Virus record (IMG/VR): IMGVR_UViG_3300046694_000626
Location: 1-32,933 of that record
Length of the DNA: 32,933 bases
Direction: 5' to 3' (one strand)
From: a virus
Shown: one piece after another, positions 2,568 to 21,973 of the stretch
Position numbering within the stretch: the stretch's first letter is position 1
Layout of the letters: every line of letters begins with the position of its first letter
The notes under the pieces: generated by a model
Database searches by the model: none
What the model was told of the DNA's origin: nothing
What the model saw: only the letters and a program-made list of their open reading frames with translations
Program-made: the position numbers and the translations under genes

Positions 2568-3605
2568 CTATGCAGGGAAATTCGATATCCCCCAATCGAT
2601 TTCGTAAGGCTTAAATCGTAATAACTCCTCCCCCACCCAGTCATTCAGTTGCATCATCCGCGTCTGAATCGGCTCCAACTCATTCGCCGCATAGATCTGC
2701 GCTGCCTCCCGAATCGATCCAAACCCGCCCGCGTTCTGCGGAACGATGCCCATCAACTGCGGAGGAATCCGCAGACTCGCCAACACATCATCCCGCGTCT
2801 GATTCTTGATCGAGTTGAATTCATCTTTCGCCGCCACCTCGCTGACCGGGATCAGTTGAATCCCGTCCTTCTTGCCGGTCGGCGAGTAAACAAACAAATT
2901 CCGGAAATTCCCCGGCCCTTTCGATTCCTTCAACGCCTTGCGCAATGCATCGATATCCGCCTCGGTCTGAGCCGCATCCGTCATGTACAGAATGAAACCG
3001 GCATGACTGCCGTTCTCGTAATACTTGCGCCTAAACAACGTCGCCGACTTGTTCAACAGCGCCGACTGCAACGCGCTGATCCACTCCGGTAGCCCATAAA
3101 TCTCCTGATGCAGATCCGCCTCACGCAAATGAAAAATTCTATCCGGCTCAAACGCGTGCTCATCCTTCCACCCCCGCACCTGGTAATACTGCCCATCTGG
3201 CCCGGCGCGCATGTACTTGGCCAACGGCGTTTCCAGTTTGCGTACCCCGCCCAACTGCGAGCGACGCCCCTCAAGATAGCCATTGCCCAGGCACAGGAAA
3301 TCCAAAGCAAACTGCTCAAACGAAGCCCGCGACAACAACGGATGCGGGATAAACGTCTTGCTCAACAAATTGCGCTTAAACATCAACCCCGAATGCAGAT
3401 GCACACTCGCCCCCACCGACCGAGCCAACCCATCCAGCGAAAGCGGCGGCTCATACCACCGTCCGTTAAACCAGCACTCCAGATAATCGAAAACCTCCCG
3501 CCCACCCAGCACCGGCGTCGGCTCGCCGAAGGAAAAAACCTGCGTCCCGGCGCCGGTAGCGGGTGCAGTGGCGGGCAAAATCTGATTGGCCATTTGTTCA
3601 GTCAT
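2568..3605 (-). CDS. Q: Phage portal protein (P2 gpQ family)
   Basis: This 345-aa protein has the usual length and pattern of the P2 gpQ / PBSX-type portal, which forms the dodecameric ring at the capsid vertex through which DNA enters and to which the neck attaches. Recognisable stretches are the N-terminal PTPVLGGREVFDYLE region, the central HLREADLHQEIYGLPEWISA and the C-terminal DDVLASLRIPPQLMGIVPQN. It follows terminase P on the minus strand with a TGATG stop/start overlap, as in P2. Its 3' end faces the presumed cos. No truncation is seen. Confidence 0.95.
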   Translation of the reverse strand: MTEQMANQILPATAPATGAGTQVFSFGEPTPVLGGREVFDYLECWFNGRWYEPPLSLDGLARSVGASVHLHSGLMFKRNLLSKTFIPHPLLSRASFEQFALDFLCLGNGYLEGRRSQLGGVRKLETPLAKYMRAGPDGQYYQVRGWKDEHAFEPDRIFHLREADLHQEIYGLPEWISALQSALLNKSATLFRRKYYENGSHAGFILYMTDAAQTEADIDALRKALKESKGPGNFRNLFVYSPTGKKDGIQLIPVSEVAAKDEFNSIKNQTRDDVLASLRIPPQLMGIVPQNAGGFGSIREAAQIYAANELEPIQTRMMQLNDWVGEELLRFKPYEIDWGISNFPA

Positions 3606-5389
3606 CAGTAAATCTCCATGCGCCCGGTGTTGGCAGTGGTCTGCCCCTCAAGCGGTTCGTTGTGCAGTGCGTGAAAGAGCGCCCAGGCCAGGTCGGCGTG
3701 GCCGGTGTTGTCGTTGCGGCCGGCGGTGTAGGTGTACTGACGTCCGCCGGCGGTGTAGGTGTACTGACGTCCGCCGGCGGTGACGGTTTTGCGGATCGCC
3801 ATCAGCGACTGGGCCATGTCGGTCCAGCCGGCATCGAATTCGATCCGGCCCTTGTGGATCACGTCATAGGCCTTGAGTACCAGGCGGGTTTTGACTTCGG
3901 GCGAGTAGCTGAAGGTGGTCACCGCCGGGAAGAACTGGCGCACCAGCTGGGCCACGCCGCTGCCCAGACCTGTCACGTCGATCCCGATGTAAGTCACCCA
4001 GTAGCGGTCGCAGACGCTCTTGATGAACGCGGCCTGCGCGGCGAAGTCCATGCCTCGGAACTGGTGACGCTCGAGGATGCGGAACTTGCCGCCCGGAACC
4101 AGTGGCGGCGCGACCACGACCATGCCGGAGCAGTCGCCAGTCTCAGCCGGGTCGTAGCCGATCCAAACCTGACGGTCGCCGAACGGGCGCATGGCGAAGG
4201 GCTTGTAGTCCTCGGCCCACTCGACCCAGCTGTCCACCATGCAAGACTGCAAAAGGGTCAGCGGAAAGATGCTCGCGCCGTCGTCGACGAACTCACACAT
4301 AAGCAGGTTGGCGAACGCTTCGGGGCTGTACTCACGGCGGAGTTCTTCGATGTCGAACAGGTCACAACCGCCCCGCTCCGCGTCGAGGATCGTGACGATC
4401 TGCCGCCACAATCGATCCTCACAGAACCGGCCCTGCTGGAGCGCTCCGTGGGACACGTCCACCTTCGTGTGCTGGGCGGCCGGCTTGCCCTTGTTGAAGC
4501 GCTCGCCCGTCCAGAAGGTGTACGCCTCGTGGGCCATGCTCGACGGCGTGGAAAAGTAGGTCTTGCGCCACTTCTTGTGCATCGCCATGCCCGAGGCGAC
4601 CTTGTTCAGTTCCTCGAACTTGAACGTCCAGAAGAACTCATCGAAGTAGAAATTGCCGTGATAGCCCTGGGCGGTACGTGCGTTAGTACCGAGGAAAAAC
4701 AGCTCGGCACCATTAGGCAAAACGATGGGATCGCCAGTCAGCTCGACGCCGATAATTTCGCGGCAGAACGCCTGAATGTAGCCCCGGAACAGATAGGCCT
4801 GGTTCTTCGAGGCCGATAGGAAAATCTGGTTGCGTCCGGTCTCGAGCGCATCAATGAACGCCTCACGGGCAAAGTAGTAAGTCGCGCCGATCTGCCTGCT
4901 TTTGAGGATGACGCGCGTGCGCTGATTGCCAGCCCGGTACCAGTCTTTCTGATAGTCGAAACAGCCATCGATGAAAGCCTCGCGCAGCAGCTCGACCTGG
5001 TCTTCATCAATCTCGTTTTTGACCGCTTTCTTCTTCGGCTCGGCGTTGCGCTTGGCCAGGTTCGGATTGAGGTCGGTTTCGGTACCGCCACCTTGAAAGC
5101 GCTGAATTCGCGCCTGCCGCTCCAGTTGGCGGTGCAGGAGATCAATCTCTTTGAAATCGCCGCCGCTTTTCCCTTCCTTAAGGATCAGTTGCACCAACCG
5201 CGCTTCCAGTGCGCCGCCAATACGTTCGACGTTGTCCGCCCGGTCCCACTCATCGCGGGCCTTCCAGCTGTGTAGCGTCTTTTCCTTTTCGCCCGTTGCC
5301 TCGGCAATCTCGCAGACACGCCACCCCATCCAGTACAGAAACTTGGATTGGCGGCGGGGATCGATGGGCAATAGTGTGGTCGTAGTCAT
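3605..5389 (-). CDS. P: Terminase large (ATPase) subunit, P2 gpP family
   Basis: A 594-aa packaging motor subunit that translocates DNA into the prohead and cuts cos. Residues about 15-50 form a helix-turn-helix-like head (GWRVCEIAEATGEKEKTLHSW). The ATPase has a Walker A-like KSRQIGAT at 163-170 and Walker B NFYFDE at 246-251. The RNase H-like nuclease has acidic residues at D413 (WIGYDPAE), D471 (YIGIDVTG) and D566 (TGHADLAW). The gene is divergent from O. One oddity is the nine-residue unit TAGGRQYTY repeated at 537-545 and 546-554, caused by a tandem 27-bp duplication just before the last nuclease acid. The frame stays open and no key residue is lost. Confidence 0.95.
   Translation of the reverse strand: MTTTTLLPIDPRRQSKFLYWMGWRVCEIAEATGEKEKTLHSWKARDEWDRADNVERIGGALEARLVQLILKEGKSGGDFKEIDLLHRQLERQARIQRFQGGGTETDLNPNLAKRNAEPKKKAVKNEIDEDQVELLREAFIDGCFDYQKDWYRAGNQRTRVILKSRQIGATYYFAREAFIDALETGRNQIFLSASKNQAYLFRGYIQAFCREIIGVELTGDPIVLPNGAELFFLGTNARTAQGYHGNFYFDEFFWTFKFEELNKVASGMAMHKKWRKTYFSTPSSMAHEAYTFWTGERFNKGKPAAQHTKVDVSHGALQQGRFCEDRLWRQIVTILDAERGGCDLFDIEELRREYSPEAFANLLMCEFVDDGASIFPLTLLQSCMVDSWVEWAEDYKPFAMRPFGDRQVWIGYDPAETGDCSGMVVVAPPLVPGGKFRILERHQFRGMDFAAQAAFIKSVCDRYWVTYIGIDVTGLGSGVAQLVRQFFPAVTTFSYSPEVKTRLVLKAYDVIHKGRIEFDAGWTDMAQSLMAIRKTVTAGGRQYTYTAGGRQYTYTAGRNDNTGHADLAWALFHALHNEPLEGQTTANTGRMEIY
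3721..3774 (-). repeat. P: In-frame 27-bp tandem duplication within terminase P
   Basis: Two identical 27-bp units lie at 3721-3747 and 3748-3774, with a partial third copy that runs to about 3782. Twenty-seven bases are nine codons, so the frame is kept and the protein gains one extra TAGGRQYTY unit. The segment sits in the beta-hairpin region between the second and third nuclease acids. The exact identity of the copies suggests recent slippage or an assembly artefact. Confidence 0.85.
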
Positions 5390-5436
5390 GGCCGCGATGC
5401 TGCCGCCCGCGACCGCGACTCAATAGCACCGCCCCT

Positions 5437-5455
5437 TGTAGCCCCCGCCCTTACA
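5437..5455. promoter_or_regulatory. Putative late-activator site upstream of O (TGTAR-N9-YTACA)
   Basis: The sequence TGTAGCCCCCGCCCTTACA is an interrupted palindrome lying in the divergent P-O gap, 104 bp before the O start. Matching 19-bp elements occur upstream of V and FI. P2-family late promoters are activated by Ogr/Delta zinc-finger proteins at TGT...ACA dyads placed upstream of the -35 region, so this is the natural candidate. Its symmetry means it could also serve the leftward P-Q operon, but the space to the P start is short. Confidence 0.5.
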
Positions 5456-5558
5456 GTCCCTCCTCGTTGCCGCGACTCGCGCGCGTCACGACCATGCCCT
5501 TCATCGCAACGCACTGCTAACCCAACAGCAGGCGCCCCAAGCATTGAGGTTTCCCAAC

Positions 5559-6389
5559 ATGAAGAAATTCCGCAGCAACTGGTTCCGCGTCGCCGTCGAG
5601 GGCGCTACCTCGGACAAGCGCACCATCAAGCGCAATTGGCTGGAACAGGCGGCGAAGAACTTCAACCCATCCACTTACGGCGCACGGATCTGGCTAGAGC
5701 ATTTCCGCAGTCTGTTACCGGACAGCCCTTTCAAGGCCTACGGCGATGTTCTGGCGGTGAGAACCGAGGAAGTAGACATCAACGGCCAAAAGAAACTGGC
5801 CCTGTTCGCCCAGGTCGAGCCGACGGCTGACCTGATCGCCATGAACAAAGCGAAACAAAAAATCTACACCTCCATCGAAATCGACGACAGCTTCGCCGAT
5901 ACCGGTGAGGCGTACATCGTGGGTCTGGGCGTGACCGATTCACCGGCCAGCCTTGGCACCGACGTCTTGTCGTTCTCGGCCCAGAAACCGGAGGTCAGCC
6001 CGTTCAAGGATCGCCACTACTCCGCGACTTCGATGTTCACCGAGGCGCTGGAAACAGAGCTGACGTTCGAGGAATTCGAAGAAAAACCGAGCATCGGCGC
6101 TCACCTACTCAGCACGGTGAGAAACCTGCTCGGCGGCAAGCAGAGCAAGGATGACAACGAGTTCACTCAAATCAGCCAAGCCGTCGAAACCGTCGCCGAA
6201 CACGTCAAAGATCTGCCCGCCCAAATGGCAGCCGCGAAGAAGTTTTCGACAAGCCAGCAAACCCGGCTGGATCAACTGAGCAAAGACTTCACCGAACTGA
6301 AGACCCAGCTTTCCACCACCCAGGATCCCAACCAGAAGACGCGCCCTCCGGTAACCGGCGGCGACAACTCGGTAGTGACTGACTGCTGA
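5559..6389 (+). CDS. O: Capsid scaffolding protein and protease (P2 gpO family)
   Basis: A 276-aa scaffold that also carries the protease activity used in capsid maturation in P2. The candidate catalytic triad is visible: D19 (ATSDKR), H48 (LEHFR) and S105 (YTSIEID), close to the spacing reported for P2 gpO. The C-terminal third (about 190-260) is charged and Gln-rich with coiled-coil character, as expected of the scaffold part. The start at 5559 is chosen because GAGG at 5546-5549 lies nine bases upstream; an in-frame TTG at 5544 is less likely. It heads the rightward capsid operon O-N-M-L. Confidence 0.93.
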   Translation: MKKFRSNWFRVAVEGATSDKRTIKRNWLEQAAKNFNPSTYGARIWLEHFRSLLPDSPFKAYGDVLAVRTEEVDINGQKKLALFAQVEPTADLIAMNKAKQKIYTSIEIDDSFADTGEAYIVGLGVTDSPASLGTDVLSFSAQKPEVSPFKDRHYSATSMFTEALETELTFEEFEEKPSIGAHLLSTVRNLLGGKQSKDDNEFTQISQAVETVAEHVKDLPAQMAAAKKFSTSQQTRLDQLSKDFTELKTQLSTTQDPNQKTRPPVTGGDNSVVTDC

Positions 6390-6421
6390 AAGTCAGCCCC
6401 GCTTAACCAAGGACGACCATC

Positions 6422-7429
6422 ATGCGCAACGACACACGCGTTCTCTTTAACGCGTACCTGCAACAGCTCGCCCAACTGCACGGTGTGAGCGACGTCACCA
6501 CCAAATTCACCGCCGCGCCGAGCGTTGCCCAGACGCTGGAAACCCGCATTCAGGAATCAAGTGCGTTCCTCAGCTCGATCAACATCTACGGCGTATCTGA
6601 GCAGTCTGGCGAGAAGATCGGCATCGGAATCGACGGCACTATTGCCAGCACCACCGACACTACAGTAAAGGATCGCGAACCCCGTGACCCGAGCAGCCTG
6701 GACAACCGCGGGTACACCTGCACCCAAACCAACTTTGACACCGGACTGCGTTACCAAAAGCTTGATCAGTGGGCGAAGTTCAAAGACTTCCAGGCGCGCA
6801 TCCGTGACGCAATCATCAAAGTTCAGGCGCTCAACCGGATCATGATCGGCTGGAACGGCACCAGCCGCGCCGCCACTTCAAACCCCGCCACCAACCCGCT
6901 GCTGCAGGACGTCAACATCGGCTGGCTGCAAAAAATGCGCGTAGAGAACGAAGCCCGCGTCATGGCCGAAGTTGTGGCAGGCAGTGGCAAGATCGAGATC
7001 GGCGCCGGCAAGGACTTCGAAAACATCGACGCCTTGGTTGTCAGCATGGTCAACGAATTCATCGACCCCTGGTATCAGGAAGACACCGATCTGGTTGTCA
7101 TCTGCGGCCGTCAGCTGTTGGCCGACAAATACTTCCCGATCATCAACAAAACTCAAGCGCCGACCGAAATGCTCGCTGCTGACATCGTCACCAGCCAAAA
7201 GCGCTTGGGCAATCTGCCGGCTGTGCGCGTACCGCACTTCCCGGCCAACGGCCTGCTGGTAACTCGCCTCGACAACCTGTCGATCTATTGGCAGGAAGGT
7301 ACCCGCCGCCGCACCGTCGTTGACAACGCCAAACGCGACCGCATCGAGAACTTCGAGTCGGTCAACGAAAGCTATGTGATCGAAGACCTGGGCTGTGCGG
7401 CCATGGCCGAAAACATCACCCTGAGCTGA
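6422..7429 (+). CDS. N: Major capsid protein (P2 gpN family)
   Basis: A 335-aa HK97-fold coat protein. The N-terminal RNDTRVLFNAYLQQLAQLHG and the central DLVVICGRQLLADKYFPIIN are typical of gpN. In P2 the first residues are removed by gpO. An AAGGA ribosome site lies about eight bases before the ATG. It sits between O and M in the canonical capsid order and no disruption is visible. Confidence 0.96.
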   Translation: MRNDTRVLFNAYLQQLAQLHGVSDVTTKFTAAPSVAQTLETRIQESSAFLSSINIYGVSEQSGEKIGIGIDGTIASTTDTTVKDREPRDPSSLDNRGYTCTQTNFDTGLRYQKLDQWAKFKDFQARIRDAIIKVQALNRIMIGWNGTSRAATSNPATNPLLQDVNIGWLQKMRVENEARVMAEVVAGSGKIEIGAGKDFENIDALVVSMVNEFIDPWYQEDTDLVVICGRQLLADKYFPIINKTQAPTEMLAADIVTSQKRLGNLPAVRVPHFPANGLLVTRLDNLSIYWQEGTRRRTVVDNAKRDRIENFESVNESYVIEDLGCAAMAENITLS

Positions 7430-7439
7430 GGCGGACACC

Positions 7440-8138
7440 ATGACCAACCCCTGCCGTCGCCATTTTGTTCGCGTCAGTGCCGCCATCGAAGCGGCAGCGG
7501 CCAATCCCACTCAAACGATGGCCGGCGCCACTGCTTACGAGCATCAGCTCAATCAACTTCTGCAAGACCGTCTGCGTCTGAAACAGGTGCAATCCAATCA
7601 AGGCAAAGCCGAACTCAAACGTCAGTTGCTGCCCGATTACATCCCCTACGTGCTAGGCGTGCTTGAGGGCGGCAAAGGCGCACAAGATGAAGTGCTGACC
7701 ACGATCATGGTCTGGCGCATCGACGCCGAAGACTTCAGCGGCGCCCTCGACATTGCCGACTACGTGCTCAAACACAAATTGATCATGCCTGACCGATTCG
7801 AACGCACCACCGGCTGTCTGGTCGCGGAAGAAGTCGCCACCGTCGCGCTCAAGGCGCTGAAAGTCGGCGAATCGTTCGAACTGGCAATTCTGCAACGCAC
7901 CGCTGAACTTACCGACGCCGAGGACATGCCCGATCAGGCCCGCGCCAAGCTGTTCCTCGCCATGGGGCGCGTAACGCTGGAAGGCATTACCGATGAGAAG
8001 CCCGGGCAACCCGGTCAGGTAAAGGCCGGCATCGACCTGCTGAAAAAAGCCATCGACCTGCACGACGCCTGCGGTGGCAAAAAGGATCTTGAGCGGGCCG
8101 AACGCCTGCTCAACAAACTCGCTGCCACTGGCAGCTAA
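7440..8138 (+). CDS. M: Terminase small (endonuclease) subunit, P2 gpM family
   Basis: A 232-aa protein matching the P2 gpM family by position, length and pattern (QVQSNQGKAELKRQLLPDYIPYVLGVLEGG and VLTTIMVWRIDAEDFSGALDIADYVLKH are conserved regions, given here in short form as QGKAELKRQLLPDY and MVWRIDAEDF). It works with gpP to recognise and cut cos. The ATG follows the capsid gene stop by ten bases. The C-terminal 30 residues form a helical segment that likely contacts gpP. Confidence 0.92.
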   Translation: MTNPCRRHFVRVSAAIEAAAANPTQTMAGATAYEHQLNQLLQDRLRLKQVQSNQGKAELKRQLLPDYIPYVLGVLEGGKGAQDEVLTTIMVWRIDAEDFSGALDIADYVLKHKLIMPDRFERTTGCLVAEEVATVALKALKVGESFELAILQRTAELTDAEDMPDQARAKLFLAMGRVTLEGITDEKPGQPGQVKAGIDLLKKAIDLHDACGGKKDLERAERLLNKLAATGS

Positions 8139-8242: not shown

Positions 8243-8707
8243 ATGAGCGGATTCGTAGCGGGCGGCAACACGTCTCCCAGTGGCCACATCAATGCCGACC
8301 CCTTCTGGCCGTCGATCGATCTGGACGACGTACGCGGAACATTGCGCATCGACTCGAGCGTCACGCCAATCCGACTTGAAACGGCGACTATCGCCGCTTC
8401 CATCAGTGTGAACCGTGAGTTCGCCACATGGCGCCGCGCCAAACAGGCCGAAGGGTACGCCACCCTCGTAGACATACCGGCAGAAAAAATTGAGGGGAAG
8501 TCAGAACTGGTTCACCTCTACCAACGGGCGATCTATGCAGCGACCGGCGCCGAAATCTGCGAGCGCTACCGCTCGTACGACAGCACCAATAGCGGCAATC
8601 AGAACGCCGACGACCTGACCCCAAGCATCGACGAATTGCGCCGGGACCAACGCTGGGCCGTGCGCGATTTCCTCGGCCTCGGCCGCACCACTGTGGAGTT
8701 GATCTGA
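8243..8707 (+). CDS. L: Head completion/stabilisation protein (P2 gpL family)
   Basis: A 154-aa head-completion protein that stabilises DNA-filled heads and forms part of the neck. Recognisable stretches are the short Gly/Ser-rich N-terminus (MSGFVAGG), FWPSIDLDDVRGTLRID, and the C-terminal DQRWAVRDFLG. A GAGGG motif (8230-8234) precedes the ATG by eight bases. It overlaps the tail gene X by TGATG. A 104-bp gap separates it from M. Confidence 0.92.
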   Translation: MSGFVAGGNTSPSGHINADPFWPSIDLDDVRGTLRIDSSVTPIRLETATIAASISVNREFATWRRAKQAEGYATLVDIPAEKIEGKSELVHLYQRAIYAATGAEICERYRSYDSTNSGNQNADDLTPSIDELRRDQRWAVRDFLGLGRTTVELI

Positions 8708-8919
8708 TGGCCGTTAGCATCCGCGCTCAGCAAAGCGATACCGTCGATGTGCTGTGCTGGCGTCACTACGGCCGCACCGCCGGTGTGACGGAAGCAGTAC
8801 TCGAAGCCAATCCCGGACTCGCCGAACACGGCCCGACCTTGCCGCAAGGCCTTTTGGTGCAAATGCCCGAAGCCCAAAGAGCCGCGCCGCAACGGCAAAC
8901 GGTGAACCTATGGCACTGA
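8707..8919 (+). CDS. X: Tail protein X (LysM-like, P2 gpX family)
   Basis: A 70-aa small tail protein. The body resembles a LysM-like fold: QSDTVDVLCWRHYGRTAGVTE, then LEANPGLAEHGPTLPQGLLVQMP (conserved core NPGLAEHGPTLPQG). gpX is needed for tail assembly, near the tail end that joins the head. Translation is coupled to L through a TGATG overlap. Confidence 0.93.
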   Translation: MAVSIRAQQSDTVDVLCWRHYGRTAGVTEAVLEANPGLAEHGPTLPQGLLVQMPEAQRAAPQRQTVNLWH

Positions 8920-8973: not shown

Positions 8974-9288
8974 ATGACTGACCGTCCCGACACTTGGGCC
9001 TGGCTTGCCGCTTGGCTAGAACAGAACTGGCCCGCTATTTACTCGGGCCTGCTGGCCGTGGTCATCGCAAGCCTGCGCGTGATCTACGGTGGCGGCACTC
9101 TGCGCCGGATGCTGATTGAGGCGCCGTTCTGCGGTGCGCTCGCCCTGTCCGCAAGTCATGGGCTGGCATTGCTGGGGATACCGATCTCTGCAGCACCTTT
9201 CTTCGGAGGTGTGATCGGCCTTCTGGGTGTTGAAGGCACCCGCGCTGCGGCCAAGAAGTTTTTCACCAACAAGGTAGAGCGGACATGA
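8974..9288 (+). CDS. Phage holin with three predicted transmembrane helices
   Basis: A 104-aa inner-membrane protein with three hydrophobic segments at about 20-38, 47-69 and 73-87 and a basic C-terminus (KKFFTNKVERT), the layout of a class I holin. It occupies the place of P2 Y. Holins form the timed membrane lesion that releases endolysin. The start at 8974 is chosen because the longer in-frame reading begins at a TTG without a ribosome site. The endolysin gene that should follow is absent, so this holin has no visible partner in the window. Confidence 0.85.
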   Translation: MTDRPDTWAWLAAWLEQNWPAIYSGLLAVVIASLRVIYGGGTLRRMLIEAPFCGALALSASHGLALLGIPISAAPFFGGVIGLLGVEGTRAAAKKFFTNKVERT

Positions 9289-9317
9289 TTCACCAACATC
9301 ATCAGGCCCAGCCATGA
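9285..9317 (+). other. Ten-codon remnant ORF at the site of the missing lysis genes
   Basis: An ATG overlapping the holin stop (ATGA at 9285-9288) opens a reading frame of only ten codons, MIHQHHQAQP, that ends within the R start codon. In related phages a lysozyme-type gene begins about here and is followed by spanin genes. The tiny frame could be the residue of that gene after deletion, or chance. R lacks a good ribosome site, which fits a deletion that removed its natural leader. Confidence 0.35.
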
Positions 9318-9790
9318 ACAAACCCGACAGCCTGAAAGCCCACCTGCTCGCCACCGTGGCCGAACTCAAGCATAACCCCGACAGACTGTTGATATTCATC
9401 GACAACGGCAAGATCCGTTGCACGGCCGCGCAAACACTTTCGTTCGAATACAGCTTCGATCTGCAAGTCATCCTCACTGATTTCGCCGGTCATCCCGACA
9501 GCGTCATGTTGCCGCTGCTGGGTTGGCTGAGCGTTCACCAGTCCGAACTGCTGGAGAACCTGAACAAGGCCGCTGATGGCATTCAGTTCGAGGCTGATAT
9601 TCTCGATAACAGCAAAGTGGATATGAGCCTGACGCTGCCGCTGACGGAGCGTGTAGTGGTGGGCAAAGATGAGAAAGGCGACACCACCATTCGTCATCCC
9701 GGCGAGCCGCAGCGGCCTGCTGACTTTCTTGATCCGAACTGGATACCAGGTGCGCAGGGTACTGGTAGTGAGTGGGTGCTGCCAAAATGA
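9314..9790 (+). CDS. R: Tail completion protein R (P2 gpR family)
   Basis: A 158-aa tail completion protein of the P2 gpR family, acting with gpS to finish the tail so that it joins the head. Recognisable parts are the N-terminal MNKPDSLKAHLLATV, the central FEYSFDLQVILTDFAGHPD and LPLLGWLSVHQSELL, and the C-terminal FLDPNWIPG. It follows the holin after only 25 bp and precedes S with a four-base ATGA overlap. The upstream sequence has only a weak CAGG as ribosome site. Confidence 0.93.
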   Translation: MNKPDSLKAHLLATVAELKHNPDRLLIFIDNGKIRCTAAQTLSFEYSFDLQVILTDFAGHPDSVMLPLLGWLSVHQSELLENLNKAADGIQFEADILDNSKVDMSLTLPLTERVVVGKDEKGDTTIRHPGEPQRPADFLDPNWIPGAQGTGSEWVLPK

Positions 9791-10248
9791 CCCATCGATT
9801 GGAAACGTTGGAGGACTGGGCGGCAGGGTTGATTGGGCAGCTCGAACCGGCGTCATGCAATAAGTTGGCTCGGCGCGTTGGCCAGGCATTATGTCGAAGC
9901 CAGCAGCAACGAATCATTGCCCAGCAGAACCCAGATGGCAGTAAATATGCGCCGCGCAAGCAAAGGAACTTGAGAGGCAAACAAGGCAGGGTAAGACGCA
10001 AAGTGAAGATGTTTCAGAAGCTGCGCACAGCGACTTTCCTTAGAATGCACGGTAACGACAAGGCCATCAGTTTGGGTTTTACCGGGCGGGTCGCACGCAT
10101 TGCCCGGGTTCACCAATACGGTCTTAGGGATAGACCAGAACCTAATGCCCGAGATGCTAGATACGAAATGAGGGAGCTACTTGGATTTACAGGGGCCGAC
10201 CTCGATACGATACGGGAAGGTCTATTTAACTATCTCAGAGGCACTTAA
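9787..10248 (+). CDS. S: Phage virion morphogenesis / tail completion protein S (P2 gpS family)
   Basis: A 153-aa protein of the P2 gpS family, which acts at the tail terminus with gpR. The diagnostic central block is RNLRGKQGRVRRKVKMF, LRTATFLRM, GFTGRVARIARVHQYG and the C-terminal LLGFTGADLDTIREGL. The start is the ATG in the ATGA overlap with R; an in-frame codon 15 bases upstream is inside R and unlikely. A second, broken copy of the C-terminal half lies about 1 kb downstream. Confidence 0.93.
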   Translation: MTHRLETLEDWAAGLIGQLEPASCNKLARRVGQALCRSQQQRIIAQQNPDGSKYAPRKQRNLRGKQGRVRRKVKMFQKLRTATFLRMHGNDKAISLGFTGRVARIARVHQYGLRDRPEPNARDARYEMRELLGFTGADLDTIREGLFNYLRGT

Positions 10249-10291: not shown

Positions 10292-10834
10292 ATGACAAAA
10301 AAACAAAAAGCCATGCTACTTGTGATTTTTCTAGTTGGCTGTTTCGCTCTTATCTACGGAACACCAAAGCTCTTGAGTTCAGAATATGCCGAGCTTGGAT
10401 TCTTATGCACCGTCATGGGGATAACGATTGTATTCATCACCTTACTGGAAATTGAACAGGATCGATTCATTAAGGGAATGTGGCTCATTGCGCTAGCCGT
10501 TCTTTACCCAATTTTTTATCCGCAATATCTAAAACTTTGGATGCACCCACTACTAGTACCCGAAGATATTGGTAAACAAATAGAACTACTCAACCAGGTG
10601 ATTTTGCTTGCTTGCTCAGGAGCTGGCGGCAGCATAATCGCAAACCACGCCGATACAAATACTCGCGAATATCGCGCAAAGATAAGTACTGTGCCGCAAC
10701 CCATAGATAACACTGAAAAAATTGAACAGCTGATACAGTACTCAAAAGATTTGAATAGAAAATTCAACTTCTTGATTCTGGCTTGCGTTGCTGTGTTTCT
10801 TACCGTTGCCATCGGCACTTTTATCGCGAAATGA
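10292..10834 (+). CDS. Cargo membrane protein with four predicted transmembrane helices
   Basis: A 180-aa protein not recognised as a known family. Hydrophobic segments lie at about 7-23 (MLLVIFLVGCFALIYG), 31-51, 54-75 and 155-176 (LILACVAVFLTVAIGTFIA). A soluble charged stretch with helical, coiled-coil-like content (EKIEQLIQYSKDLNRKFN) lies between the third and fourth. AAAGGA at 10275-10280 serves either the TTG at 10286 or the ATG at 10292; the ATG is chosen. The gene is AT-rich, sits alone between S and a dead copy of V, and has no structural counterpart in P2, so it is a cargo gene. Membrane proteins in such places often block superinfection, but that is inference. Confidence 0.7.
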   Translation: MTKKQKAMLLVIFLVGCFALIYGTPKLLSSEYAELGFLCTVMGITIVFITLLEIEQDRFIKGMWLIALAVLYPIFYPQYLKLWMHPLLVPEDIGKQIELLNQVILLACSGAGGSIIANHADTNTREYRAKISTVPQPIDNTEKIEQLIQYSKDLNRKFNFLILACVAVFLTVAIGTFIAK

Positions 10835-10859
10835 CTCATTCCACGTAACTGAGTAAATG

Positions 10860-10878
10860 TGTACGACGCTTGCTTACC
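10860..10878 (+). promoter_or_regulatory. Decayed late-activator site before V'
   Basis: The sequence TGTACGACGCTTGCTTACC keeps most of the TGTAR-N9-YTACA pattern but has lost the final A and the symmetry. It starts 66 bp before the V' start codon, almost exactly as far as the intact site starts before V (65 bp). This shows that V' was copied with its promoter region. Confidence 0.45.
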
Positions 10879-10925
10879 AGCACCAGAGACTGCACCTACA
10901 AGAAAATGGCGCCAATATCGGCGCC

Positions 10926-11091
10926 ATGAACGACTTAGCCACCCTCACCGACCTGATAGAAAACCTCATCCGCCTCGGCACTATCGCTACCGTCCAGATG
11001 AAGCTCCCGCGCCTGCAGGTCAACCCCGGCACCCTCACCACCCGCTGACTCCATGGGTCACCGGGCGCGCAGGCGGCGATCGCGAATGGAA
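10926..11091 (+). pseudogene. V' : truncated, frameshifted duplicate of baseplate gene V
   Basis: The first 55 codons match the start of V at 12615 closely (MNDLATLTDLIENLIRLG against MNDLATLARLIENLIRLG). A one-base shift after the LTT codons changes frame: the V frame stops at 11048, and the similarity resumes as LTPWVTGRAGGDREWN in another frame. The copy then breaks off at GGAA (11088-11091), where it is joined directly to S-like sequence. Eight-base inverted arms ATGGCGCC / GGCGCCAT (10906-10913 and 10920-10927) surround the V' start. No functional product is expected. Confidence 0.8.
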
Positions 11092-11366
11092 TCTGCGAGG
11101 CAAGCAAGGCCGAACGAAGCGGAAGGTGCAGATGATTCATAAGCTGCGCACGGCAAGTTTATGAAACTACGGGGTGACGGTAATGCCGTTTCGGTAGGAT
11201 TCACTGGAAGGGTTGCTCGTATCGGGAGAGTTCCCCAGTTCGGCTTGAAAGATCGTGCCGAACCGGGAGCACCTGAAATTACACATGAGCAAAGAGCAGT
11301 TTTAGGATTTAGTGACTCTAACTTAGATCTTATCAGAGTTAGCCTTCTTACTTTTCTTGCAAGAAA
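11088..11366 (+). pseudogene. S' : truncated, frameshifted duplicate of tail gene S (3' half)
   Basis: From the GGAA junction the sequence encodes LRGKQGRTKRKVQMIHKLRT, matching residues of S from about 60 on. A one-base shift at about 11160 is followed by GDGNAVSVGFTGRVARIGRV, PQFGLKDRAEPGAPE and LGFSDSNLDLIRVSLLTFL, the C-terminal half of S, in the next frame. The divergence from S (about 60% at the protein level by eye) shows it came from another related phage rather than from recent duplication. It ends where the minus-strand HEPN gene ends. Confidence 0.8.
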
Positions 11367-11367
11367 A

Positions 11368-11901
11368 TTATTTCTCAAACGGGAAACTGCCAAAAATATT
11401 ATAAGCCAGCCGATAAATATCTGTATAACCATGAACCCTAGCTAGTTGCGGAGCCCAGTAGCGACCATGCGCCATCCAGTTCCTAAACGCTAAGGCCCCC
11501 TTGAGTTCCCTTACGTAGTTAGTGGAACTAGGGGCGTGTCGTTTCCAAGCATCCAGCAAATCTTCAAAACCTACCCTATTTTTATTTCGCCTATAGATTT
11601 TTATGAAAGCACGACTAAGTTCATCCTTGAGCTTCTTGTCAACTCTAACGAGGTAATCTAATCGAAAGCTTGCTTCCAACGCAGCCAAGATGGTCAAGCA
11701 TACTGTCACCTCAAACTCACGCCGTGCGTTCGCATATTCTAAATCTATTTGCTCCGGTGTGGAAAAGGCGTACCTTGCTAAAAAAGAAGCTCCATTCTCG
11801 CTGTAGTAGGAAGCTGTAGCCGAATTCATAAGGTCAAAATGGTGAGCTATATCTAGCAGATCGAGATTCAGCCCGGACGGATTGAAGTCGATTCTCTTCA
11901 T
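11368..11901 (-). CDS. HEPN-type putative RNase toxin
   Basis: A 177-aa, mostly helical protein. Near the end lies RNWMAHGRYW (140-149), in which R140 and H145 form the R-x4-H catalytic signature of HEPN ribonucleases. An earlier helix carries LEASFRLDY (75-83), a conserved Glu/Arg-bearing helix in many HEPN proteins. HEPN toxins cut RNA and are common in toxin-antitoxin, abortive-infection and CRISPR systems. Translation is coupled to the upstream partner by an ATGA overlap (11898-11901). It is AT-rich and inserted on the minus strand between S' and V, against the late genes. The family is called from the motif only; a precise subfamily is not recognised. Confidence 0.65.
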   Translation of the reverse strand: MKRIDFNPSGLNLDLLDIAHHFDLMNSATASYYSENGASFLARYAFSTPEQIDLEYANARREFEVTVCLTILAALEASFRLDYLVRVDKKLKDELSRAFIKIYRRNKNRVGFEDLLDAWKRHAPSSTNYVRELKGALAFRNWMAHGRYWAPQLARVHGYTDIYRLAYNIFGSFPFEK

Positions 11902-12440
11902 GCAGCTAGTTCCATCAACAATGACAGAAAATTGTTCTCGGTGAGTTCCGTGTATGTATAAGGTGGCTTATTGGAGACAATCTTCCACTCCCATGGCAAC
12001 TCGGATTTTTCAGACTCAAGATGTTTTATCGGAGGTGTTGCCTGACTACCAATAGTCACTCTGAAGTTTATTTTTGGTCCGTCTCCCCTGACCAAGGCAA
12101 GCATCCCAGTTCCGGCCGGCCCCAATACATCAACCCGCCCTTTGGAACCTATCAACATTGTACCAACCGGAGCAATAATGTATTTAGCATTTCCCACCAT
12201 CAGAACGCCCTTATTGACTCTGTAGGCACCCAGAAGCTCCTCATGCAAAGTAGTTGGCACCAATTTAAGATTAATATTTCCTGACTCCTTATAAGGAAGG
12301 ACATAGTTTTCGATCGCTGCATAAAGCAAATCGAGGGCAACCTGCCACTCTTGAATTTCAGTTTCAGGATCGAAAGTCGGCGTCTCACTTTCATTTGAAT
12401 GTTTCGCTACAAAATCTTCAAAACTCTTATTCTTCGCCAT
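11898..12440 (-). CDS. Unknown partner of the HEPN protein, candidate antitoxin or sensor
   Basis: A 180-aa protein that I do not recognise. The N-terminus is acidic and polar (FDPETEIQEWQVALDLLYAA, 24-43), followed by a predicted beta-rich body (LLGAYRVNKGVLMVGNAKY, APVGTMLIGSKGRVDVLGPA). The C-terminus ends in a short helix (NNFLSLLMELAA). An AGGTG ribosome site lies five bases before the ATG. It is the first gene of a two-gene operon and overlaps the HEPN gene by four bases, the usual order for antitoxin then toxin. A role as antitoxin, activator or phage sensor is inference from position alone. Confidence 0.6.
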   Translation of the reverse strand: MAKNKSFEDFVAKHSNESETPTFDPETEIQEWQVALDLLYAAIENYVLPYKESGNINLKLVPTTLHEELLGAYRVNKGVLMVGNAKYIIAPVGTMLIGSKGRVDVLGPAGTGMLALVRGDGPKINFRVTIGSQATPPIKHLESEKSELPWEWKIVSNKPPYTYTELTENNFLSLLMELAA

Positions 12441-12614: not shown

Positions 12615-13187
12615 ATGAACGACTTAGCCACCCTCGCCCGCCTCATCGAAAACCTCATCCGCCTCGGCATCATCGCTGCCGTCCAGATGAAGCCACCACG
12701 TGTGCAGGTCAAAACCGGAACCCTCACCACCGGCTGGCTCCCATGGGTCGCCGCCCGAGCCGGCGCTGACCGCGAATGGAACCCACCCACCGAAGGCGAG
12801 CAGATCATCCTTTTCAGCCCATCCGGCCAACTCGCCAACGGCATAGCCCTGACCGGCCTATTCAGCAACCACAACCCAGCCAACGGCGACCGCGAAGGCC
12901 TCCACCGCAGCACCTACCGCGATGGCACCGTCATCGAGTACGACAGCGTCGCGCACCACCTAAACGCCATGCTGGCCGAAGGCGGCACCACCAACCTAAC
13001 CAGCACGGGCGGCATCCACATCGTCGGGCCGATCACCCATGAGGGCGACTACAACCAAACCGGCAACCAGAACATCACCGGAAAAGTCACCGTATCCATG
13101 GACGTAGTCGCGGCCAACATCAGCCTGGTCAACCACCCACATGGCAACGTAATGCCCGGCAGCGCAAAAACGGGGAAACCGGAATGA
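12615..13187 (+). CDS. V: Baseplate assembly protein V (tail spike, P2 gpV family)
   Basis: A 190-aa protein forming the membrane-piercing spike at the tip of the tail. The N-terminal helix LARLIENLIRLGIIAAVQ leads into an OB-fold (VKTGTLTTGWLPWVAARAG, EGEQIILFSPSGQLANG). This is followed by a repetitive beta-helix (TSTGGIHIVGPITHEGDYNQ, GNQNITGKVTV) and the C-terminal NPHG-type turn NHPHGNVMPGSAKTGKPE. No ribosome site is visible before the ATG. It begins the V-W-J-I-H-G operon and overlaps W by ATGA. Confidence 0.95.
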   Translation: MNDLATLARLIENLIRLGIIAAVQMKPPRVQVKTGTLTTGWLPWVAARAGADREWNPPTEGEQIILFSPSGQLANGIALTGLFSNHNPANGDREGLHRSTYRDGTVIEYDSVAHHLNAMLAEGGTTNLTSTGGIHIVGPITHEGDYNQTGNQNITGKVTVSMDVVAANISLVNHPHGNVMPGSAKTGKPE

Positions 13188-13528
13188 ACCGAGAAACCGG
13201 TGCATCTCTAGGCCTGGTAGAACATATTACCCAGTCCATCACCGACATCCTGACCACCCGCATCGGCACCCTCGTCATGCGCCGCGAATACGGCAGTCTG
13301 TTACCCGAGCTGATTGATCAACCCTTTAACGACTTCACCCGCTTGCAGGTCTATGCCGCCGCCGTTATGGCGTTGATGCGCTGGGAAACTCGCATCAGCC
13401 TCAATCGAGTGCAATTTGTCGGGGCAAATCTGCAAGGCCAAGCGTCGCTGGATCTTGAGGGCAGCATCGTCGACAGCAACCAGCCGCTGAGCCTGAGCGT
13501 GCCCCTGCAACTGGGGGGTAGCGTTTGA
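13184..13528 (+). CDS. W: Baseplate assembly protein W (gp25-like, P2 gpW family)
   Basis: A 114-aa gp25-like wedge protein. Recognisable are EHITQSITDILTTRIGTLVM, RREYGSLLPELIDQPFND and MRWETRISLNRV. It joins sheath and baseplate. It overlaps V and J by four bases each. Although the family carries a name derived from T4 gp25 lysozyme similarity, no lysozyme activity is implied. Confidence 0.95.
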   Translation: MNRETGASLGLVEHITQSITDILTTRIGTLVMRREYGSLLPELIDQPFNDFTRLQVYAAAVMALMRWETRISLNRVQFVGANLQGQASLDLEGSIVDSNQPLSLSVPLQLGGSV

Positions 13529-14436
13529 ACACCTTCGTCGCCATCGACCTCGGCCAGCTCCCGGCGCCACAAGTCGTCGAACAGATCGACTACGAGCTAA
13601 TCCTCGCCGAGCGCAAGGCCTACGCCATCAGCCTCTGGCCGGTCGAGCATCAGGTCGAGATTACCGCCCGCCTCAACATGGAGTCGGAGCCGTTAACCAA
13701 GCTGCTTGAAGAAAACGCCTACCGCGAGATGATCTGGCGCCAGCGAGTCAACGAGGCATCCGCTGCCAATATGCTGGCCTTAGCCAAGGGCACGGACCTG
13801 GAACAGCTCGCCGCCAACTTCAACGTGAAACGGCTGGTCGTTCAGGTCGCGAGTCCGACAGCGACACCGCCAATGCCCAAATTGATGGAAGGTGACGACA
13901 GCTTAAGGGAGCGCGCCCAAATGGCCTGGGAAGGTCTCAGCACCGCCGGCCCGCGTAATAGCTACATCTTCCACGCCCGCTCCGCTGACGGCCAAGTCGC
14001 CGACGCAACCGCCGAAAGCCCGGCGCCGGCCGAAGCGGTCGTGACGGTGCAGTCAATTTTGGGAAATGGCACCGCATCGCAAGCATTGCTCGACAAGGTC
14101 AAGACCTACCTCAGCGACGACGACCGCCGGCCCGTCGCGGATCGCCTCACTGTTCAGAGCGCGAAGATCCTCAACTACCGGATTAAAGCCAAGCTCTTTC
14201 CGCTGACCAATGGGCCAGAAACCGAACTGATCATCGCTGCCGCCGAAGCGCGGCTCTTGCAATTCGTGCATCAGCGCCGCCGCTTGGCGCTGGAGATTTC
14301 CGAGTCCATCGTCCACGCCGCGCTGCATGTTGAGGGCGTGCGCAAAGTCGTACTGAAGGACTGGGTCGACATCGTCGCCACCAAGTACCAAGCGCCTTAC
14401 TGCACGCATGTCGAGCTATCGCTGGGGTATGAGTGA
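13525..14436 (+). CDS. J: Baseplate assembly protein J (P2 gpJ family)
   Basis: A 303-aa baseplate wedge protein. Recognisable parts are the N-terminal IDLGQLPAPQVVEQIDYE, the central RQRVNEASAANMLALAKGTDLE, the SPAPAEAVVTVQS strand and the C-terminal EGVRKVVLKDW. The start is a TTG that overlaps the W stop (TTGA at 13525-13528), with a run of G just upstream as ribosome site. It is followed by I with a one-base TGATG overlap. Confidence 0.94.
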   Translation: MNTFVAIDLGQLPAPQVVEQIDYELILAERKAYAISLWPVEHQVEITARLNMESEPLTKLLEENAYREMIWRQRVNEASAANMLALAKGTDLEQLAANFNVKRLVVQVASPTATPPMPKLMEGDDSLRERAQMAWEGLSTAGPRNSYIFHARSADGQVADATAESPAPAEAVVTVQSILGNGTASQALLDKVKTYLSDDDRRPVADRLTVQSAKILNYRIKAKLFPLTNGPETELIIAAAEARLLQFVHQRRRLALEISESIVHAALHVEGVRKVVLKDWVDIVATKYQAPYCTHVELSLGYE

Positions 14437-15059
14437 TGACCTACCAGCCACTGCTACCAGACAACTCAACACCACTGGAGCGCCAGGCCGCGCAGGCCTT
14501 GGCAGAAATCCAGCGCGTGCCAATTCCGTTGCGCACGCTCTACAACCCTGACCTGTGCCCCCTGCCCTTACTGCCGTATCTGGCCTGGGCGTTTTCCGTG
14601 GATCGCTGGGACAGCGAATGGTCAGAAGCCGCAAAACGTGCCGCCTGCCGCGCGGCGTACTACGTCCACTCGCACAAAGGCACCATCGGCGCCTTACGCC
14701 GCGTAGTCGAACCGCTGGGCTACCTGATCGAAATCGCTGAATGGTGGCAATCCGCTCCGCCGGGCACACCCGGCACCTTCACCCTACGCATCGGCGTTCT
14801 CGACGCCGGCATCAGCGAAGCGATGTACCAAGAGCTGGTGTGGCTCATCGACGACGCCAAACCCCTCACCCGGCACCTGACCGGCCTCGACATCATTCTT
14901 GAAACCCGACTCGACACGTTCGTTGGTGTCGCCGTTTACGACGGTGACGATATCGACGTGTACCCGTGGAACACCCCGGATATCGATGTATCAGTCCGGG
15001 GCTACAGCGGCGTGAGCCTTTACACCCTAGACGAACTGGATGTGTACCCCCATGGTTGA
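14436..15059 (+). CDS. I: Tail protein I (P2 gpI family)
   Basis: A 207-aa baseplate-edge protein to which the tail fibre attaches. The core LYNPDLCPLPLLPYLAWAFS, WDSEWSEAAKRAACRAA, HKGTIGALRRVVEPLGY is characteristic. The C-terminus holds repeated DIDVYPW / DIDVSVRGY / DELDVYP strands, likely the fibre-binding part. The ATG at 14436 overlaps the stop of J; a GTG one codon earlier is possible. Confidence 0.93.
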   Translation: MTYQPLLPDNSTPLERQAAQALAEIQRVPIPLRTLYNPDLCPLPLLPYLAWAFSVDRWDSEWSEAAKRAACRAAYYVHSHKGTIGALRRVVEPLGYLIEIAEWWQSAPPGTPGTFTLRIGVLDAGISEAMYQELVWLIDDAKPLTRHLTGLDIILETRLDTFVGVAVYDGDDIDVYPWNTPDIDVSVRGYSGVSLYTLDELDVYPHG

Positions 15060-16554
15060 TCAGAACTCTATTTTCGGCGGCATGCTGACGACGCTGGGCG
15101 CCGCCAAAAAAACCAACTGCGACGCCCTCGGCGTTCCGTGGCAGCCGAGCTATATGCTGATTGGTGACGCCAACGGCACCGACCCTGTGCCCAGTACGAC
15201 GCAAACCAAGCTGATCAATCAGCGATACCGCGCCCAACTCAACCAGCTGTACGTTTCACCGACTGACGAAAACGTCCTCATCGCCGAGCTGGTGCTTCCT
15301 CCGGATGTCGGTGGTTGGTGGATTCGCGAACTTGCACTCGAAGACGATGATGGCGTGTTTTCGGCCGTCGCCAACGTGGCGCCAAGCTACAAGCCGCTGC
15401 TCGGTCAGGGGTCCGGTCGTAACCAGGTGGTGCGGATGCACATCATCACCAGCGGCACGTCAAATATTCAGCTGAAGATTGATTCGTCGGTGGTGATGGC
15501 CACTCGTGACTACGTTGATCGCGCGGTCAGCGTCTGGCAGATTTTTACATACGTGTCGTTTTCTAAAAGCCTGAAGCCCAACGAACTGGGCATGGTTTTG
15601 ATTGATGCCAGCGTCGCACCGCTGACCGTTCAGCTTCCATCCGCCAACGCAGCCCTGGGTAATCGCGATGTGATCATTCATCGCAGGGACAACAGCACCC
15701 ACCGGCTCGTGGTGAAAGCAGCGGAGAAAGACGCTGTGAAATTTCACACTCATCTCAACCCCGCCGGCTACCCGTTTCTCGTATTGATGGGAGCCGGCGA
15801 TTGGTGGCATCTGCGCAGCGATGGCACCGGTAGTTGGTGGCCGGTCGGTCGCTTCGACAATACGCCTCTGGGTCGCCCGGCTTTTGAAACCACCACCGTG
15901 TTCAACCCCGGCGGTTACGTTGCTTTGAATGGTCAGTTGCTAAAGCGAAATGAATGGCCGTGGCTCTGGGATCACGCTCAGCAATCAGGAATGCTCTACC
16001 CAGAAAGAGAGCAGCGAATGGAAGGCGCATGGAGCACAGGTGACGGCAAGACAACGTTTCGCTCCCCTGAGGCGCGGGGTGAGTTTCTCAGGGTGCTCGA
16101 CCAAGGTCGCAATGTCGAAAAAACCACCGTCACCGGTACCGCCACAATGGGCAGTGCGGTCATTACAGAGGTTAGAGCCCAGACAACGCTCATATCAGGG
16201 ATGGCTTTCGAAGGCGGGAGTTTTCCGCGGGGAACCAAAATCATTGCGGTGAAGGATGGGGAAATCATCGTTTCAACCAAATCTGAATCCGAAGGCGCTG
16301 GCATCTGGAAAGTCGCGGGGCGAGTCGCTGGCTCATCGACGCCTGACGCTTTCGAACAGCATACACACTCCGTCTCACTGGGCCAGGGCACCGGCAACCT
16401 CGACTCGTTAGTCCCTGCTTCAGTCGCCCGCGGCAGTGCCGGCTTGCAGCACACCGTGTCGCAAAATTTTTCTCCGCCCTACATCGGCCGCGTAGGTAAC
16501 GCCGAAACTCGTCCACGAAACATTGCCTATCCCGGCTGTATTAAAGTGATTTGA
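15052..16554 (+). CDS. H: Tail fibre protein (P2 gpH-like)
   Basis: A 500-aa receptor-binding fibre. Residues 1-155 are the tail-collar fibre N-terminal domain that docks on the baseplate (NSIFGGMLTTLGAAKK, LVLPPDVGGWWIRELALEDD). The middle (about 175-270) is a beta-rich shaft. The C-terminal 200 residues are collar/tip-like (GYVALNGQLLKRNEWPWLWD and the ending RPRNIAYPGCIKVI), and contain EQHTHSVSLG, a His-bearing motif common in such tips. The start is the ATG inside the end of I (8-bp overlap); a GTG 12 bases upstream is less likely. The tip would set host range. Confidence 0.92.
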   Translation: MVDQNSIFGGMLTTLGAAKKTNCDALGVPWQPSYMLIGDANGTDPVPSTTQTKLINQRYRAQLNQLYVSPTDENVLIAELVLPPDVGGWWIRELALEDDDGVFSAVANVAPSYKPLLGQGSGRNQVVRMHIITSGTSNIQLKIDSSVVMATRDYVDRAVSVWQIFTYVSFSKSLKPNELGMVLIDASVAPLTVQLPSANAALGNRDVIIHRRDNSTHRLVVKAAEKDAVKFHTHLNPAGYPFLVLMGAGDWWHLRSDGTGSWWPVGRFDNTPLGRPAFETTTVFNPGGYVALNGQLLKRNEWPWLWDHAQQSGMLYPEREQRMEGAWSTGDGKTTFRSPEARGEFLRVLDQGRNVEKTTVTGTATMGSAVITEVRAQTTLISGMAFEGGSFPRGTKIIAVKDGEIIVSTKSESEGAGIWKVAGRVAGSSTPDAFEQHTHSVSLGQGTGNLDSLVPASVARGSAGLQHTVSQNFSPPYIGRVGNAETRPRNIAYPGCIKVI

Positions 16555-16561
16555 GGCTCCG

Positions 16562-17128
16562 ATGATTACTTATCTGATTGACGACGCCGGCGCCCTGTCG
16601 GGGCCGGTAACGTTTCCACCGATCCCCGGTTTCGGCCCGCAAGTGCCCGGTAATGCCGTGCTGCTTCCCAAAGCTCTCGCGCCTGCGAAGTCCGAACACA
16701 GCTGGGCCATGATCGATGGCAGCCCTCAACAGATTCGCGATCTGCGCGGATCCGTTTTTAGGACTGTCGATGGCAGCGAACTCGGTTGGTACGCGCTAGG
16801 AGATTTGCCGGAAGGCCTCACTCGCGAACCTCGGCCAGGCGAACATTTCATCTGGAAAAACGGCAAGTGGACGCTCGACAAATCAGCTCAGCGCGCCACT
16901 CAAACCCTGCAAGTTCTGGATCGTCGCGACGAGTTGCTACGCGAGGCACAGCTGCGCATTGCACCGCTGCAATACGCAGAAAAGCTCGGCAGCGCGACCG
17001 AGTCTGAAACTGAGGGACTAGTGACGTGGATGCGCTACAGCGTTGAACTCAACCGCATCGAACAGCAGGACCAGTTCCCCGACAAAATCGATTGGCCTGC
17101 GCTTCCTCATCATTATCGGCGCCGGTAA
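16562..17128 (+). CDS. G: Tail fibre assembly chaperone (P2 gpG-like)
   Basis: A 188-aa fibre assembly protein. The N-terminal part is a small beta domain (ITYLIDDAGALSGPVTFPPI, PAKSEHSWAMIDG) and the C-terminal part is the helical assembly region (RRDELLREAQLRIAPLQYAE, LVTWMRYSVELNRI). Such proteins help fibre trimerisation and are not in the virion. A GAGG site lies before the ATG, and only 7 bp separate it from H. Confidence 0.9.
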   Translation: MITYLIDDAGALSGPVTFPPIPGFGPQVPGNAVLLPKALAPAKSEHSWAMIDGSPQQIRDLRGSVFRTVDGSELGWYALGDLPEGLTREPRPGEHFIWKNGKWTLDKSAQRATQTLQVLDRRDELLREAQLRIAPLQYAEKLGSATESETEGLVTWMRYSVELNRIEQQDQFPDKIDWPALPHHYRRR

Positions 17129-17138
17129 AACCGCATGG

Positions 17139-17157
17139 TGTAACCACGCCACTTACA
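17139..17157. promoter_or_regulatory. Putative late-activator site upstream of FI (TGTAR-N9-YTACA)
   Basis: The sequence TGTAACCACGCCACTTACA lies in the only large gap (106 bp) between G and FI and starts 96 bp before FI. It matches the O-proximal site at 14 of 19 positions. P2 has a late promoter at this place, driving the FI-FII-E-T-U-D tail operon. Confidence 0.55.
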
Positions 17158-17234
17158 ACCCTCAACGCGCGACGTAATCATCCTCCAACGGCAACCTGTG
17201 CATCGACTTCACCCTCACCGCACAGGCCGCTTGC

Positions 17235-18404: not shown

Positions 18405-18419
18405 CCGGAGAACGGCGCC

Positions 18420-18935
18420 ATGGCCCTGCCACGCAAACTGAAAAACCTCAATCTGTTCAACGATGCCAATAGCTACGTCGGCGTGGTCAAGTCCGTCACC
18501 CTGCCGCCCCTCGGTCGCAAGATGGAGAGCTATCGCGGCGGTGGCATGAACGGCCCGGTCAAGGCTGATCTGGGTTTCTCCGACGACGGCATCCAGTTCG
18601 AATGGAGGACCGGCGGGCTGGACTTGATCGCTCTGCGCCAGTTCGGCGCAGTGAATGCCGCAGGTGTCGCCCTGCGTTTTGCCGGGGCCTTCCAGCAGGA
18701 CGATACCGGTGATGTAAGCGCCGTCGAGGTGGTCATGCGCGGCCGTCACGAGACCATCGAAATGGGCGACAACCAGCCCGGCGAAGACACCGAACACAGC
18801 ATCACCACCACCTGCACCTACTACAAGCTCATCGTCGATAACGAAGAAATCATCGAGATCGATCTGCTCAATTTCATCGAGAACGTGAACGGCGTGGACA
18901 TGCTCGAAAAGCAGCGCGCCGCGATGGGCCTTTAA
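18420..18935 (+). CDS. FII: Tail tube protein (P2 gpFII family)
   Basis: A 171-aa major tail tube subunit. Characteristic parts are ALPRKLKNLNLFNDANSYVG at the start, VTLPPLGRKMESYRGGGMNG, and the C-terminal EIIEIDLLNFIENVNGVDM. It assembles into the inner tube around the tape measure. It follows the sheath gene by 15 bp with a GGAG ribosome site. Confidence 0.96.
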   Translation: MALPRKLKNLNLFNDANSYVGVVKSVTLPPLGRKMESYRGGGMNGPVKADLGFSDDGIQFEWRTGGLDLIALRQFGAVNAAGVALRFAGAFQQDDTGDVSAVEVVMRGRHETIEMGDNQPGEDTEHSITTTCTYYKLIVDNEEIIEIDLLNFIENVNGVDMLEKQRAAMGL

Positions 18936-18962
18936 CCTTTTTCCTTCCCTTGGACACTCCCC

Positions 18963-19292: not shown

Positions 19293-19300
19293 AGGACGCC

Positions 19301-21968: not shown

Positions 21969-21973
21969 CGCCC

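Follow-up and report, generated by a model that had tools for sequence, protein, structure and literature searches.

Loss of lysis genes from a lineage of Pseudomonas P2-like prophages with intact virion genes, and possible release by co-resident lysis cassettes

The analysis described here points to a lineage of Pseudomonas P2-like prophages that has lost its lysis module, in whole or in part, while keeping its virion genes intact, and the members of this lineage are probably released by lysis cassettes of other elements resident in the same cell. We give this reading a probability of about 55%. A stronger version, in which these elements are long-lived, complete tailed phages devoid of lysis enzymes that have passed through several stages of loss and escape via co-resident prophages or tailocins as 'lysis hitch-hikers', is put forward more tentatively, at somewhat less than even odds. 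It is commonly accepted that tailed phages need an endolysin for their release.

The stretch of DNA analyzed (the window) is a whole IMG/VR virus record of 32,933 bp. It has the gene order of P2-like phages (Peduoviridae), with terminase and portal genes divergent from O, N, M, L, X ... R, S, V, W, J, I, H, G, FI, FII, E, T, U and D, and is a Pseudomonas P2-like prophage. The capsid and terminase genes Q and P (minus strand) and O, N and M (plus strand) occupy positions 2568–8138 and have full-length matches to those of relatives (PF05929 for O). Gene X, encoding a tail protein (8707–8919, plus strand; PF05489), adjoins the lysis module on the left. Gene R, for tail terminator/completion (9314–9790, plus strand, with its ATG at 9314; PF06891, E=3e-49; PHROG 65), and gene S, for tail completion (9772–10248, plus strand; PF05069), are followed by the tail genes V, W, J, I, H, G, FI, FII, E, T, U and D (12615–23682, plus strand), which are intact as judged from Pfam and PHROG matches and their coverage. 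Endolysin and spanin genes between the holin gene and R, which are typical of P2-like phages rather than defining for them and vary within the window's group, are absent.

The window also contains several features unrelated to virion structure. At its left end (1–2497), a DarT-like ADP-ribosyltransferase fused to an HD domain is followed by a DarG-like macro-domain protein, the C-terminal part of which resembles DprA (DNA_processg_A) and ShosA, an unusual architecture for DarTG. Gene P carries a short in-frame tandem duplication (minus strand, about 3700–3800; TAGGRQYTY repeated) that is absent from the P genes of relatives. Between S and V, at positions 10857–11445, traces remain of an additional V start and an additional S end (a 132-bp repeat at 85% and a 76-bp repeat at 74%), left by the insertion or exchange of cargo genes in this slot. 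Two opposite-strand genes without a family match lie at 11368–12440 (minus strand); the first has an R-N-x3-H (HEPN-like) motif, recognized by eye, and is possibly a toxin or defense gene. A TacA-like antitoxin is paired with a GNAT acetyltransferase at 24963–25797, and a 443-aa gene, also without a family match, is found on the minus strand at 31602–32933; in the related element G420, this gene adjoins an integrase gene 99% identical to that of the window.

The holin-R interval and the search for lysis enzymes

The holin gene (8974–9288, plus strand; ATG at 8974, stop codon TGA at 9286–9288) encodes a 104-aa protein that matches the lambda-type holin family over its whole length and above curated cut-offs (TIGR01594, 96.1 bits versus 55.05; Pfam PF05106, E=6e-27, 94.4 bits versus 23.8; PHROG 126). 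Only 25 bp (bases 9289–9313) separate its stop codon from gene R, as the original prediction had it. The proposed comparison with close P2-like relatives bore out the unusual nature of this spacing, the full-lysis relatives having a holin-R interval of 1,578–1,581 bp in most cases, and of up to 2,462 bp where extra genes are present. This interval holds a muramidase-type endolysin (PHROG 1224), a small ORF, Rz and Rz1, the last of which ends in ...VDMxYQHQQAxP*, with its stop codon overlapping the ATG of R.

A ten-codon frame had also been predicted at the holin stop. The frame is real (9285–9317, plus strand) and begins one base before the stop codon rather than at it. It reads ATG ATT CAC CAA CAT CAT CAG GCC CAG CCA TGA (MIHQHHQAQP*), and its ATG overlaps the holin stop as its own stop overlaps the ATG of R. 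Each residue of the peptide has its counterpart in the C-terminus of Rz1 from full-length relatives (...VDM-IYQHQQAQP*), so the frame is better understood as a deletion scar carrying the 3' end of rz1 than as a chance ORF. It is, to judge from this match, a remnant of the lost outer-membrane spanin gene rz1/lysC. In the window, the end of the holin gene, AAGGTAGAGC, is joined exactly to the last stretch of rz1, GGACATGATTCACCAACATCATCAGGCCCAGCCATGAAC; the joint lies at 9278–9285 (plus strand), with the crossover near 9280/9281, such that holin codons up to about position 9280 are fused to the final rz1 codons. The predicted deletion of endolysin and spanins is thus visible in the joint itself, and the comparison indicates that a single deletion of about 1.55 kb, extending from the holin end to the last rz1 codons, took out the endolysin, the small ORF, Rz and Rz1 in an ancestor of this prophage. 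The possibility that the relic frame is a required coupling peptide was rejected, as the frame is broken by a TAA codon in one of the contigs sharing the joint (L032).

The absence of an endolysin, lysozyme, amidase or spanin, which had been noted from the open reading frames, was upheld throughout the window by searches against Pfam, NCBIfam and PHROGs and with the endolysin of relatives as a query. The window genes searched against these three collections, assigned and unassigned alike, yielded neither an endolysin nor a spanin, and no lysis enzyme was recovered by a PDB sequence search of three window genes lacking a family assignment. A six-frame search of the window with the relatives' endolysin gave no match, whereas the positive controls did. 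Two findings had been named as fatal to the original prediction, namely an endolysin among the unassigned genes and a plaque-forming relative with the same compact arrangement; the first did not turn up in the window, and the second was not found among isolated phages. A hidden endolysin in the window was rejected on the Pfam, NCBIfam, PHROG and PDB sequence results.

Spread of the deletion allele and repeated loss of lysis genes

The same joint is present in five further IMG/VR contigs, obtained from different metagenomes (L019, L029, L030, L032 and L082); when 2.9 million viral contigs were scanned for its pattern, only those five were retrieved. Given this identity of the joint, an assembly error or a private mutation was rejected as its source. 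A degraded compact copy is present in a P. baetica genome, and a junction-pattern scan of 399 Pseudomonas genomes yielded no intact compact or lysis-free element in isolates. A second match to the junction pattern, in a Bacteroidetes MAG, had no phage context in the stretch examined and is probably due to chance. The holins of five comparable compact elements group together as one clade (support 0.996), but R, S and the upstream flank of these elements are interspersed with those of full-lysis relatives, a pattern that indicates one deletion followed by recombination around the deletion allele. The 3' half of the holin alone recovers the compact clade (0.87) and the 5' half does not; part of the holin divergence may, therefore, have been imported. 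Pairwise dS among the compact holins ranges from 0.17 to 0.67, with a dN/dS of about 0.11 (0.08 in full relatives), and both halves of the gene behave alike. In a neutral simulation, equally few amino-acid changes were obtained in 0.04% of runs and a stop codon was gained in 58%. The sequence comparisons thus indicate that the deletion allele is old and is carried by several diverged elements, and that the holin stayed under purifying selection after the deletion.

The 80 loci most similar to the window's R were classified, together with the window (as L001), by their X-R interval; these are the nearest loci rather than a random sample, and the frequencies given below are not general ones. A full endolysin-Rz-Rz1 set was found at 56 loci with X in view, eight of which have another holin. 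Five loci have a holin and an endolysin without spanins (intervals of 883 and 887 bp, with two different joints), and five, including the window, have a holin only. In L031, X is joined into a truncated rz, a joint shared, together with a premature stop in X, by L225. Eight loci have no recognizable lysis gene, five of them with an X-R gap of 13 bp and three with unrelated genes instead, and L199 was identified by pattern as a sixth locus with the 13-bp gap. The spanin deletions themselves are of more than one kind: in L050, L076 and L221, the endolysin frame runs into an apparent rz1 tail, lengthening the endolysin C-terminus, and a different spanin-deletion joint is seen in L040, L048, L052 and L222.

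Of the testable loci, 9/68 lack the endolysin, 17/76 lack rz and 19/79 lack rz1, whereas none has lost or shortened any of the control genes N, M, L, X, S, V and W (complete in 52/52 to 80/80; Fisher p = 0.003 or less for endolysin loss versus L or S). Late-gene loss in this region is, thus, confined to the lysis genes. These genes were lost through at least five different joints, including those of elements with no lysis gene left, and the lysis module has been cut back repeatedly in this lineage, to a state without spanins, to the holin only, or to nothing, while the genes for capsid, tail and replication remained intact and under purifying selection. Nearly all of the reduced elements are metagenomic, and IMG/VR records can be fragments. 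A full reading of larger elements gave a similar picture: G001 (38.5 kb) has only a holin, with no endolysin found in the full element, and no holin, endolysin or spanins were found in the near-complete G420 (38.7 kb), G425 (47 kb) and G430 (39.2 kb). The integrase and right-hand 443-aa genes of G420 are 99% identical to those of the window, yet G420 has no holin. G275, at about 4.57–4.60 Mb on an assembled Pseudomonas chromosome, is a lysis-free element with an X-R gap of 28 bp and yet another joint.

In a tree based on M, L, V and W, the reduced elements form two groups, one comprising the window, L049, L030, L053 and L043 (99%), in which the holin-only and lysis-free states are interleaved, and the other comprising L048, L052, L051 and L074 (100%); all full-lysis elements fall outside both. 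The reduced elements also share a marker, com-dcm, in which a gene for a Mu Com-like zinc ribbon, a translational regulator, overlaps a short gene for a C5-cytosine methyltransferase (in the window, com of 66 aa and dcm of 283 aa at 23701–24713, plus strand; PF10122 and PF00145; PHROG 6417/13819). Its layout resembles the com-mom arrangement of Mu. It was found in 13/13 testable reduced-lysis P2-type elements versus 0/46 full-lysis records of at least 30 kb, 34 of which were classified by tblastn and 12 by interval length. With IMG/VR considered alone, the marker is present in 9/9 testable reduced-lysis records (Fisher 1.6e-10, a value that ignores shared descent). A search for dcm in the 399 Pseudomonas genomes, an independent set, identified the P2-type elements G275, G221, G244 and G206, all of which are reduced (two without spanins, one with nothing and one with a partly deleted X-rz fusion); phages of other types in Pseudomonas genomes also have com-dcm. 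As the lineage has its right arm in common, the association is explicable by shared ancestry or by recombination, and com-dcm is treated as a lineage marker and not as a cause of lysis-gene loss.

Proposed release in trans and alternative explanations

In the preferred reading, virions would still be made, and a co-resident, co-induced cassette, belonging to another prophage or to an R-tailocin, would provide the spanins together with the muralytic enzyme. The element's own holin, in the window's subclade, would open the membrane on its own timing and let the foreign cytoplasmic endolysin pass, and the lysis-free elements would have to wait for lysis by the donor. Possible donors are common in the host genus: in 59 sampled Pseudomonas genomes, a PF11860 endolysin was found in 19/59, a GH19 enzyme in 40/59 and either in 47/59. 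The four PF11860 loci inspected, which were the best matches, are flanked by P2-type genes, with X or L on one side and R on the other. Environmental Pseudomonas regularly have SOS-induced R-tailocins with a holin, endolysins and spanins (PMC7815802).

The original prediction had also allowed that the element might no longer lyse cells at all, and the simplest form of this idea is that of a defective or domesticated prophage, in which lysis loss is the first step of decay, there is no further spread and the holin and structural genes persist as remnants. Such loss has been proposed to mark prophage domestication (PMC11080155), and decayed members of the group are known, in the form of the P. 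baetica relic and of L031 and L225 with their interrupted X. Intact genes under purifying selection are, in addition, a sign of past rather than present function, and inactive elements could have their genes refreshed through recombination with functional phages. Decay is, however, difficult to reconcile with the state of the 19 structural genes tested, which show essentially no truncation in the five clade-A elements and are under strong purifying selection (dN/dS 0.03–0.18, dS 0.3 to >1), with the deep, supported clades formed by the reduced elements (dS 0.3–1), with the restriction of losses among neighboring late genes to those for lysis, or with the persistence of selection on the holin after the deletion. 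As loss recurred in a lineage with intact virion genes, an element that is simply dead is the weaker option, and we regard decay as unlikely.

A lysis system of the element's own, beyond the reach of homology, seems rather unlikely too. It might consist, for example, of a small lysis protein or of a muralytic enzyme of non-canonical type encoded in a variable slot, and such slots do hold unassigned membrane or secreted proteins, including that at 10292–10831 in the window and two membrane proteins after dcm in G420, as well as an M48 peptidase in G430. In the lysis-free G275 element, the S-V slot (L223, 14150–14755) encodes a secreted 201-aa protein whose His/Asp pattern resembles, by eye, that of LAS-type metallopeptidases; it has no Pfam, PHROG or PDB match and is a candidate alternative muralytic gene for the G275 element only. 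The com-dcm pair also marks the lineage; its two products, Com and the methyltransferase, have evident functions of a different kind. A search for a shared replacement among ORFs of at least 25 aa in seven reduced versus three full-lysis genomes found only com-dcm and its overlapping shadow frames to be common to all of the reduced ones and missing from the full-lysis ones, and the window protein at 10292–10831, absent from ten other records, was rejected as a lysis gene of the lineage. The holin, which is the only lysis gene conserved in the window's subclade, might instead have been repurposed for timed killing, membrane permeabilization or exclusion defense, with lysis irrelevant. This is very improbable, as its sequence remains that of an ordinary lambda-type holin and close relatives of the same clade (G420, G427 and G430) lack it, showing that it is not generally kept.

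Release by co-resident cassettes, if it occurs, would mean that lysis can be outsourced between elements sharing one cell, and that the co-induction of tailocins and prophages is a resource exploited by other elements. With the com-dcm marker and the graded series of module states (complete, spanins lost, holin alone, none), the model is open to direct testing in Pseudomonas isolates. No description of such a lineage was found in the open-access literature.

Comparison with known systems

The nearest systems with a complete module are P2-like Pseudomonas prophages (for example, L003, L004 and L007) with the order L-X-holin-...-R-S and with holin and R 80–97% identical to those of the window. 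The Citexvirus phages Dobby and Sirocco have the same gene order, with R about 70% identical and a different holin. All of these full-lysis relatives have an endolysin (PF11860 family, PHROG 1224), Rz and Rz1 between the holin and R, where the window has a 25-bp scar. The window does not resemble an R-tailocin, which has no capsid or terminase genes, because Q, P, O, N, M and L are full length. P4-type satellites would likewise need another element in the cell for release. P4 lacks capsid and tail genes. The window differs from such satellites, which have no structural genes of their own, in possessing the whole virion gene set and terminase, intact, with 19 structural genes present.

Lysis functions supplied by, or shared with, another element are known from three other systems. 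Colicin Ib in Salmonella is released by prophage lysis genes (PMC7374059); here too, a mobile element without a lysis gene of its own is freed in trans, which was demonstrated experimentally in that case and is proposed on genomic grounds for the window, and colicin Ib is a plasmid toxin whereas the window is a phage. In Listeria, phi10403S and the monocin are co-induced and their holin-endolysin pairs are redundant for lysis (PMC6872733); unlike the window, both keep a lysis pair, which was removed only experimentally. The R- and F-pyocins provide an example of two particle types released by one lysis cassette (PMC9810705), and differ from the window in forming adjacent clusters under one regulator and in producing headless particles.
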